This document shows positions 7,740 to 10,194 of a stretch of DNA of 32,849 nucleotides, one piece after another. Source of the stretch: Candidatus Parcubacteria bacterium (GTDB taxonomy: Bacteria > Patescibacteriota > Minisyncoccia > Phycocordibacterales > JAACPR01); the NCBI GenBank assembly GCA_009995365.1, contig JAACPR010000010.1, positions 1-32,849 on the forward strand, given 5' to 3'. Position numbers and translations under genes: made by a program. Each line of letters begins with the position of its first letter. Within the stretch, counting starts at the first letter, position 1. The notes below the pieces were generated by a model. The model worked only from the letters and a program-made list of their open reading frames with translations. It was not told the DNA's origin and searched no databases.

Positions 7740-8315
7740 TTACCCATAAATTGCAAACCGCCTAGGGATAGGCGGTTTTTTAATAATTTTATTTATCTTC
7801 AATAATAAATCATTTTTAGATTTTTTTGTAGAAAAATTATGATCTGTTGGTAGTATTTCTAAAGGTATTTTTATCGTTAAGTGTTTATTGTATTTTTCTG
7901 CAATTTTGTAACCTGCTTGCTTTGCCCCAAAGATATAAATATTTTTGTCTATTTTAGATATTATTTCTTCGTATTTTTCTAGTTTCTGGTAACTTTTCCT
8001 TTTTGGGAAGATATCTTCTAAATTTCTAGATGGTTCACAAAGTATTAATTTCTCGAAATACGGTTCTAATTTTAGAGAAAAATAACAACCAAGACTGTGA
8101 GATATGCAAATAATCTTTTCGGATTTTATTTTTTTTAATTCTTTCTCTATATTGTTGAGTGTATTTTTAACACCCCACTTTTTATTTTCACTAAAAGTTT
8201 TTAAGGTAATAAAATTAAATTCTTTCTTTAAATTCTTTTTTAAGAAAACAGAAAGATTATTTTTCGTATCGTCTAGATATCCAGTTATATATACAATAGT
8301 TAAATTAGACTTCAT
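7740..8315 (-). CDS. Alpha/beta-hydrolase-fold protein (RBBP9/esterase-like), small
   Basis: 191 residues. The start NLTIVYITGYLDD resembles the first strand and oxyanion loop of alpha/beta hydrolases. CISHSLGCYFSLKL (about residues 71-84) is a nucleophile elbow of the form S-H-S-L-G, with Ser73 as candidate nucleophile. TDHNFS near the C-terminus offers the catalytic His. The acid residue is not certain. Size and motifs resemble the RBBP9/YdeN serine hydrolases; the substrate is unknown. Its last 13 codons (from KKPPIPRR) are encoded by the opposite-strand terminator hairpin, so the natural C-terminus may have been extended by loss of a stop. The sequence is very Lys/Ile/Phe-rich and lower in GC than its neighbours. 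A TATAAT lies 7 nt before the ATG. Confidence 0.65.
   Translation of the reverse strand: MKSNLTIVYITGYLDDTKNNLSVFLKKNLKKEFNFITLKTFSENKKWGVKNTLNNIEKELKKIKSEKIICISHSLGCYFSLKLEPYFEKLILCEPSRNLEDIFPKRKSYQKLEKYEEIISKIDKNIYIFGAKQAGYKIAEKYNKHLTIKIPLEILPTDHNFSTKKSKNDLLLKINKIIKKPPIPRRFAIYG
7755..7781 (+). terminator. Rho-independent terminator after the DUF1653 gene
   Basis: A perfect 10-bp stem (AAACCGCCTA / TAGGCGGTTT), a GGGA loop and a run of T. The convergent gene on the minus strand reads through this hairpin. Confidence 0.85.
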
Positions 8316-8328: not shown

Positions 8329-8419
8329 ACATGTTACTTTTTTGTGAAAGCACTGGACCTGCCTTTGGGGTATTTTCTGGAGGTGCTGTATTAAGGGGTT
8401 GAGTGTACCAAATTTAGGG

Positions 8420-8449
8420 TTGACATTTCTGATAAAGTATGTGTATAAT
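8420..8449 (+). promoter_or_regulatory. Consensus sigma-70 promoter of the PEP-CTERM gene
   Basis: TTGACA (8420-8425), an 18-nt spacer and TATAAT (8444-8449). It is the only promoter in the window with both hexamers perfect. The expected start is near 8456, giving a leader of about 75 nt. Confidence 0.8.
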
Positions 8450-8456
8450 ATTGGTA

Positions 8457-8506
8457 AGTTGATCTTTTAAATTTGTTCGCAAGGTGCGAGCGAGGATCAC
8501 GCAACT
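8457..8506 (+). promoter_or_regulatory. Structured 5' leader of the PEP-CTERM mRNA
   Basis: An outer stem AGTTGATC (8457-8464) can pair with GAT and CAACT (8495-8497 and 8502-8506) around a small internal loop. An inner hairpin TCGC-AAGGT-GCGA occupies 8477-8489. It may protect the mRNA or regulate it; no known riboswitch is recognised. Confidence 0.4.
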
Positions 8507-8518
8507 ATAACCCTTAAT

Positions 8519-8524
8519 AAAGGA
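8519..8524 (+). promoter_or_regulatory. Shine-Dalgarno of the PEP-CTERM gene
   Basis: AAAGGA about 8 nt before the ATG. It is the only well-placed ribosome binding site I see in the window and fixes the start at 8532. Confidence 0.7.
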
Positions 8525-8531
8525 TAATATT

Positions 8532-9224
8532 ATGAAAAAGCAATTCTTTGCTATTTTAATCAGCGTGTTCCTTGTGAATGCGCTTTTCTCGATTACAGTG
8601 TCGCCAATCATAGAGAACGAAACATCATTCTTTGCAATTCCGGATGGTGAGACGATTGAAACATATCGTCCGTTTCATGGGGAAATTTTCGAAAATGGTA
8701 ACAACGAAGCGCAAAATGTTGCTGTTGGTAGTGGAGATTTCTCGACATACAGCAGTGCATACGACCTCGATCCGAATTGGCTTGTGAATACAAAGTATGA
8801 TTTTACTCTGTCTCACGATTCAGCCGGCAATGTCAACTTCATTGTTCACAATATTGGTATGGCTGAACCTCTCAGTTACCAACCATTGATTGCTACAAAC
8901 CAAATCTTTATCGGCAACGATAATGATTCAGGTATTAGTTTTCATGGAATGGAAATGACTGATATGGTGTTTAGTTCGGGTACGGATGTTCTCGTGTTAC
9001 CTGATTTGGTTACTACAGGGGATACCTTCAAAGGTCTCGTGGTTTCTGATTTCGCAGATACATGGAACCTCTCAGGAATAATAGAGTTCACCACACCAGA
9101 AGGAGGAACACTCGCACATTTTTCGAGTTTCAAGTTCTATGGTGCAGTTCCGGAGCCTTCGGCATATCCACTGTTGCTTGGATTATATGCAATTCTGTTG
9201 GTTATCTCCAGCAGGAAGCGATAA
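8532..9224 (+). CDS. Secreted protein with PEP-CTERM sorting signal
   Basis: 230 residues. Residues 1-20 form a signal peptide (MKKQFFAILISVFLVNALFS). The middle is a beta-rich, Cys-free secreted domain I do not recognise (roughly 25-205). The C-terminus is a textbook PEP-CTERM signal: VPEPSAYPLLLGL (206-218), a hydrophobic helix and a basic SSRKR end. In family knowledge such signals are cut by an exosortase and occur in Gram-negative-type bacteria such as Verrucomicrobiota and Proteobacteria. No exosortase gene is in the window. Unlike the other genes it has a consensus promoter, a 75-nt leader and a good Shine-Dalgarno (AAAGGA, 8 nt before ATG), plus its own terminator. Codon choice looks less AT-biased. 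Transfer or an assembly chimera are both possible. Confidence 0.85.
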   Translation: MKKQFFAILISVFLVNALFSITVSPIIENETSFFAIPDGETIETYRPFHGEIFENGNNEAQNVAVGSGDFSTYSSAYDLDPNWLVNTKYDFTLSHDSAGNVNFIVHNIGMAEPLSYQPLIATNQIFIGNDNDSGISFHGMEMTDMVFSSGTDVLVLPDLVTTGDTFKGLVVSDFADTWNLSGIIEFTTPEGGTLAHFSSFKFYGAVPEPSAYPLLLGLYAILLVISSRKR

Positions 9225-9248
9225 TTCGATTAAGGCACAAATTTCATC

Positions 9249-9278
9249 GCTACCAAATTAGTTTGGTAGCGATTTTTT
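9249..9278 (+). terminator. Rho-independent terminator after the PEP-CTERM gene
   Basis: A perfect stem GCTACCAAA / TTTGGTAGC with a short TTAG loop, then GATTTTTTT. It abuts the stop codon of the convergent prepilin gene. Confidence 0.88.
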
Positions 9279-9853
9279 TAATCATACTGATTAGAACTTT
9301 CATAAATAAAATAGGTTGTTCCTGCAAAATCTGCTGAAAGTTCCTTACTATCACCTCCGCAGTTTTGAGAAGTGCCTTCAAGATACCAATGTAATGTGAA
9401 ATTTGTACAGTTACTATCTGTAGTACAATTATAGATAACCCCTTTCATGTCACCATATGAACTTGCTAATGTTTCTGAATCACTTTTAGGTGTACTATCT
9501 CCACCAAAATGAGAACCTAAATCACCATTGATATCTGTATCACCAGTAACTTCATAAATTCCAAAGCAAAGTTCACTATTCCCGTATCCCAAACAGGCAT
9601 AATTAGTACTATTTATGCTACCACCATCATACCCCCGATCTGGATATTTCCCATCCGAATTATTACTCCTATACAACTCTAGTGCGTTTACATACTGTTG
9701 AACCATTTGAATCTTGGCACTATTCCTCGCCTCTCTCCTCGCGTCCTCTAAACTTACCAAAACAATCGCCGCCAAGAGGCCAATGATGGCAACAACAACC
9801 AAAAGCTCTATTAATGTGAAACCTTTTTCTGTTGTTGTCTTTGCTACTTTCAT
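9278..9853 (-). CDS. Type IV prepilin / pseudopilin-like protein
   Basis: 191 residues. The class III leader MKVAKTTTEKG is followed by FTLIELLVVVAIIGLLAAIV, with prepilin peptidase cleavage expected after Gly11 and the conserved Glu at mature position 5. The hydrophobic helix continues into the amphipathic SLEDARREARNSAKIQMVQQ. The globular domain is Gly/Ser/Asn-rich with several Cys (YACLGYGNSELCFG, YNCTTDSNC, QNCGG) that may form disulfides. It lies 8 nt after a small membrane-protein gene on the same strand, so it is probably co-transcribed. No pilus assembly genes are in the window. Confidence 0.88.
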   Translation of the reverse strand: MKVAKTTTEKGFTLIELLVVVAIIGLLAAIVLVSLEDARREARNSAKIQMVQQYVNALELYRSNNSDGKYPDRGYDGGSINSTNYACLGYGNSELCFGIYEVTGDTDINGDLGSHFGGDSTPKSDSETLASSYGDMKGVIYNCTTDSNCTNFTLHWYLEGTSQNCGGDSKELSADFAGTTYFIYESSNQYD

Positions 9854-9861
9854 TTTAAAAA

Positions 9862-10194
9862 TTATTCAGTATTACTATTATTAGCTCTGATGTTTTGTGG
9901 GGATAGGGGATCTCTGCCTTGGTCGACTAAGTCGAGATATTCTTGCATTTCGTATCTGGTGCCGTCAGGTCCTACAACATAGTCATTGCCGATGCTTCTC
10001 CCGTTCAATAAATACCAAGTCAAAGCAAAGAAAGTAATAATGATTAAAAACAGTAAAATAAAAGCACTAGCTCTGCTGCTAACTATTTTGTATCTAATCA
10101 AGAACTTTACCATTGAAGGGTCGTCCTTTCTCCCATACAGCTTTTTAGCTCTAAGATTAAATTCATTTTCTTCGTCAAATTGTACGCCTTCCAT
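9862..10194 (-). CDS. Small single-pass membrane protein upstream of the prepilin
   Basis: 110 residues. A charged N-terminal part (about 1-38) precedes one transmembrane helix at about residues 43-64 (AFILLFLIIITFFALTWYLL). An outward region of about 45 residues contains VGPDGTRYEMQEYLDLV. No family is recognised. Its stop is 8 nt before the prepilin start, so the pair is probably an operon and the protein could help pilin handling (inference). The TAAAAT -10 element lies 7 nt upstream of the ATG. Confidence 0.65.
   Translation of the reverse strand: MEGVQFDEENEFNLRAKKLYGRKDDPSMVKFLIRYKIVSSRASAFILLFLIIITFFALTWYLLNGRSIGNDYVVGPDGTRYEMQEYLDLVDQGRDPLSPQNIRANNSNTE

Follow-up and report, generated by a model that had tools for sequence, protein, structure and literature searches.

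PEP-CTERM proteins have been described from bacteria that possess an outer membrane and a homologue of the exosortase EpsH, with a median of eight substrates (PMC1569441, 2006). An exception is Chlorobium tepidum, in which two PEP-CTERM domains are found without an EpsH homologue (PMC1569441). The import of genes into Patescibacteria is established, with individually transferred genes derived from diverse putative donors (PMC12455944). The text of the latter study contains no mention of PEP-CTERM, and a literature search, which left most subscription papers and preprints outside its coverage, returned no report of PEP-CTERM or exosortase in Patescibacteria. Two things are new here: orphan PEP-CTERM genes recur in a patescibacterial order without a detectable exosortase, and diverged ectodomains are joined to near-identical heads.

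The window, the whole 32,849-nucleotide stretch analysed, is contig C24 of a 758-kb genome (95.86% complete, bin contamination 0.29%). One of its genes encodes P0001, a protein of 230 amino acids. Similar to the substrates of the exosortase (EpsH) system, P0001 has an N-terminal signal, a non-conserved ectodomain and a C-terminal PEP motif followed by a helix and a basic end, and its gene is monocistronic with a long upstream region (PMC1569441). It differs from that system in that no exosortase was found, in that there are two instances rather than a median of eight, and in its Patescibacteria host. The promoter also differs, matching the sigma-70 consensus, whereas a sigma-54 motif is described for Proteobacteria (PMC1569441). 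The features of the locus are as follows.

8397-8591, + strand: head common to both gene copies of the genome, comprising promoter, leader, Shine-Dalgarno (SD) sequence and 20 codons (blastn, alignment)
8420-8449, + strand: sigma-70 consensus promoter, TTGACA-18-TATAAT (12/12 match)
8456-8531, + strand: 5′ leader of ~75 nt with a hairpin at approximately 8458-8504 (transcription start placed from the -10 box)
8519-8524, + strand: SD sequence AAAGGA, 7 nt 5′ of the ATG
8532-9224, + strand: gene of the PEP-CTERM protein P0001 (ORF, tail motif, profile scores)
8532-8591, + strand: signal peptide MKKQFFAILISVFLVNALFS, DNA identical to that of the copy on contig C10
8676-9092, + strand: ectodomain (aa 49-187) with weak choice-of-anchor W similarity (NF041928, E 8.5e-6, 25.5 bits, cut-off 45)
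9147-9221, + strand: PEP-CTERM tail of VPEPS, hydrophobic helix and SSRKR (sequence, profile scores, genome count of VPEP)
9246-9279, + strand: intrinsic terminator with a 12-bp stem and a T-run (9246-9273)
9278-9853, - strand: convergent GFTLIEL pilin, in the same arrangement at the C10 copy and in the genomes G004 and G071
9862-10194, - strand: small transmembrane (TM) protein paired with the pilin, with a paralogue at the C10 locus

The stretch at 8420-9278 is confirmed as an autonomous expression unit, in which promoter, leader, SD sequence, the gene of a secreted protein and terminator follow one another. An earlier note on this DNA had singled out its promoter as the only full consensus in the window, and the sole 12/12 match to sigma-70 is indeed that at 8420-8449, where 0.05 would be expected from Markov-1 simulations. 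The same holds for its claim of a single good SD sequence, as AAAGGA is the only one of at least 5 nt across the 30 genes of the window. The leader of about 75 nt and the strong terminator were also borne out, the latter being the best in the region scanned. The leader has a predicted fold of -19.1 kcal/mol and folds somewhat better than its shuffles (z = -2.26); an Rfam scan of the head region of the window gave no credible match. Most genes of this genome lack an SD sequence, and one of at least 5 nt precedes just 32 of the 667 genes that encode 120 aa or more. The SD-bearing genes may list further imports. Two secreted-looking proteins with an SD sequence, at G000:C17:37755-38807 (-) and G000:C19:109948-110493 (+), are candidates for similar imports.

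The N-terminus of P0001 consists of MKK and a hydrophobic core, recognised as a signal peptide by hydropathy and inspection. The C-terminus reads ...AVPEPSAYPLLLGLYAILLVISSRKR, so that the VPEPS, hydrophobic helix and RKR end reported previously are present. Within the tail, VPEPSAYPLLLGLYAILLVISSRKR, the Pro-Glu-Pro lies near the C-terminus and is followed by a hydrophobic helix and a basic end, as is characteristic of PEP-CTERM. P0001 scores slightly under the profile cut-offs, with 16.8 bits for PF07589 (cut-off 20.7) and 15.0 bits for TIGR02595 (cut-off 16). Across the 758-kb genome just two sites encode VPEP(S/T), both of them within PEP-CTERM genes, and the reversed control pattern is absent (0 sites); PF07589 likewise gives two hits in this genome. 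The structure prediction for P0001 was uninformative (pLDDT 38) and too poor for a fold search, and no match was returned from the solved structures searched.

A check for further PEP-CTERM proteins, proposed in the earlier note, led to a second gene. The search of the genome with P0001 gave one other match, P0002 on contig C10, a paralogue of 238 amino acids ending VPEPSMYALLFGIGALALVSLRRK, which clears both cut-offs (PF07589 26.2 bits, TIGR02595 19.7 bits). The 195-nt head of the window gene is 94% identical to its counterpart at G000:C10; its last ~80 nt and the first 20 codons show no difference. With 12 differing positions in the alignment, the heads cannot be one set of reads placed on two contigs. 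Past codon 20 the DNA of the two copies is unalignable by blastn, and the proteins share ~30% identity overall. Both ectodomains resemble choice-of-anchor W (NF041928; E 8.5e-6 and 1.6e-5, 25.5 and 24.6 bits), with neither reaching the cut-off of 45 bits. The coding part of the head has no change at 12 synonymous sites while the body is saturated (pS 0.77), which suggests an exchange or co-acquisition of the heads that is recent compared with the divergence of the bodies. The GC content of the two genes is 41.6% and 44.5%, against 33.7% for the genome. The head was also considered as a mobile element; this was rejected, as the copies have no terminal repeats in common. Beyond short matches at the start region, the head was not found in the other genomes of the 397-genome order sample, and the exact leader was not found in viral contigs. 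A LOOT RNA (Rfam RF03000, 49.9 bits, gathering threshold 46.4) lies on C10 at L004:2555-2676 (+), ~340 nt upstream of the P0002 gene, and explains part of the inverted repeats at that site.

The whole-genome check for an exosortase found none by two models and a manual screen. There was no match to PF09721 (E 0.001) or to TIGR04178 (E 10) in the genome. Manual reading of 757,219 of the 758,067 bases gave 24 proteins of 140-450 aa with multiple TM segments, and no evident exosortase is among them. Pfam assigns other identities to two of the four less obvious candidates and none to the remaining two. A screen for the Cys-Arg-His motif matched just two non-membrane proteins and is supportive only, the motif having missed one of three control exosortases. 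An exosortase could yet reside in the ~4% of the genome that is absent, or be too diverged for the models.

The recurrence of such genes was followed in 397 genomes of the order and in a sample of 380 genomes of the phylum. PF07589 matches occur in 52 of the order genomes (13%; 42 over the cut-off), at one or two places in each, and none of these 52 carriers has a PF09721 match over the cut-off. Within the phylum sample, PF07589 was found in 16 genomes (11 over the cut-off) and the exosortase family PF09721 in 10 (6 over the cut-off), and the two sets do not overlap. Homologues of exosortase/archaeosortase that carry CSG/CAG motifs are seen in other Patescibacteria (L017, L018 and L019), in which no PEP-CTERM protein was detected.

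From the surroundings of the order matches, 52 tails meeting the motif rule were kept. In 47 of 49 testable loci the PEP-CTERM gene exceeds the ORFs around it in GC, the mean difference is 10.5 points (Wilcoxon p 5e-14), and at 35 loci it is the GC-richest gene, against 6.1 expected. An SD sequence of at least 5 nt precedes 23 of 46 PEP-CTERM genes with signal-guided starts and 25 of 433 neighbours, an excess of about eightfold, the neighbour count rising to 41 of 433 if the most favourable of several starts is used. The higher GC and the SD excess point to import as whole expression units. The unit in the window has the same pattern with a milder GC shift. The ectodomains of the order's PEP-CTERM genes are mostly unrelated to each other. 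In most homologous pairs dN is well under a saturated dS, and the genes therefore look maintained. Two relatives sampled from the same family yielded no syntenic orthologue of the window gene.

It is probable that P0001 is a surface protein gained by horizontal transfer, exported by Sec and retained through its C-terminal helix, in a lineage that appears to lack the cognate sortase. A single-gene cassette for a secreted surface protein would have been acquired by horizontal transfer, and its donor-style promoter, leader and SD sequence would drive translation in a genome whose genes mostly lack SD sequences. The product would be exported by Sec and its signal peptide then removed. The hydrophobic helix and basic end at the C-terminus would stop transfer, presumably leaving the ectodomain on the cell surface. 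In the putative donor lineage an exosortase would cut the VPEP tail; here, where none is detectable, the tail is most likely a plain membrane anchor. The two genes would be of one ancestry, recent recombination or co-acquisition having kept the heads alike as the ectodomains diverged. The earlier suggestion of a recent transfer is thus well supported by GC, by SD usage and by the recurrence of this signature in many related genomes. As for the donor, tblastn with P0001 head and body peptides, a method that reaches close relatives only, gave no homologue in 84,980 species genomes, and none was found among plasmids and phages, the matches to phage DNA being short chance matches.

The GC and SD usage of the unit, unlike those of its neighbours, could also arise if foreign DNA had been joined to a Patescibacteria contig by assembly or binning, and some of the other order matches, being on short contigs, may be misbinned. 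Such an artefact, which the earlier note had raised as a chimeric assembly, is highly improbable for the window. The twin lies on a second contig with 12 head differences and the same pilin-pair neighbourhood, bin contamination is 0.29%, and similar genes are found inside contigs of 100-981 kb in relatives. Among these, the single 981,549-bp contig of G004 carries two PEP-CTERM genes whose GC is 60-61%, against a background of 38-39%, and the 12 testable cases on contigs of at least 100 kb keep the GC pattern (mean +12.7 points). Import was preferred over a single chimeric join on account of the twin and the order-wide pattern. The pilin neighbourhood itself allows another account, in which a resident module for expression and secretion, the head, has received different ectodomains by recombination, forming a small surface-variation system that is perhaps tied to the pilin loci. 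Each PEP-CTERM copy is convergent with a pilin that follows a small TM protein; G071 has this arrangement too, as does G004, which is from another family of the order and has a different PEP-CTERM gene there. Of the 648 genes of this genome that encode at least 120 aa and are not pilins, 5 are convergent with a pilin no more than 450 bp away, among them the two PEP-CTERM genes. Order-wide, 7 of 52 PEP-CTERM genes have a pilin within 450 bp, six flanking the pair of TM protein and pilin and the seventh a pilin alone; adjacency was rejected as a rule and retained as an enrichment. A common insertion site and a functional connection are both possible. Swapping of ectodomains would also fit the sharp end of identity at codon 20. 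It is nevertheless improbable, as there are two copies only, silent ectodomain cassettes were not found, an identical head occurs in no other multi-copy genome, and the same weak domain similarity of both ectodomains means that simple duplication suffices. An alpha/beta-hydrolase-like gene lies near the PEP-CTERM and pilin locus in three genomes (L124, L128 and the window at 7740-8315, the last with weak Pfam support).

A further account holds that the tail is still processed, the PEP motif being recognised by an exosortase analogue of another family or by an undetected exosortase. A whole-protein search of f68, a family other than that of this genome, which was not conditioned on the tail, gave five homologues of at least 33% identity (query included), all with PEP, helix and basic tail, and a sixth, weak match without the PEP tail. 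PEP is also kept in homologous pairs of f10, f36 and f51, though these were found via the tail. The retention in f68 may mean either that something still reads the tail or that there were repeated separate imports. Continued processing is unlikely given that no carrier in the order has an exosortase above the cut-off (0/52), that exosortase and PEP-CTERM genomes do not overlap in the phylum sample, that each genome has only one or two substrates, and that no candidate enzyme was found. The undescribed sorting system suggested in the earlier note likewise has no positive evidence, with no exosortase found and no substitute candidate identified. More speculatively, and with rather little probability, the order's Patescibacteria may repeatedly capture PEP-CTERM surface proteins from other bacteria, plausibly their hosts, and retain the PEP tail because it is still processed, either by a different enzyme that they encode themselves or by one of the cell on which they live, which would amount to exosortase-type sorting with no exosortase of their own.

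Acquisition by transfer with the tail serving as an anchor remains the probable reading. The orphans of Chlorobium tepidum are a close parallel, with two PEP-CTERM domains and no EpsH homologue, as here. They were read as the possible relic of a lost system in an outer-membrane bacterium, whereas the genes described here recur across an order and carry signs of import. In the latter respect they resemble the import cases of PMC12455944, which are likewise individually transferred genes. Should the genes derive from host or neighbour cells, they would provide a searchable record of the contact partners of uncultured bacteria, as well as a natural test of the role of the PEP-CTERM tail without a sortase.
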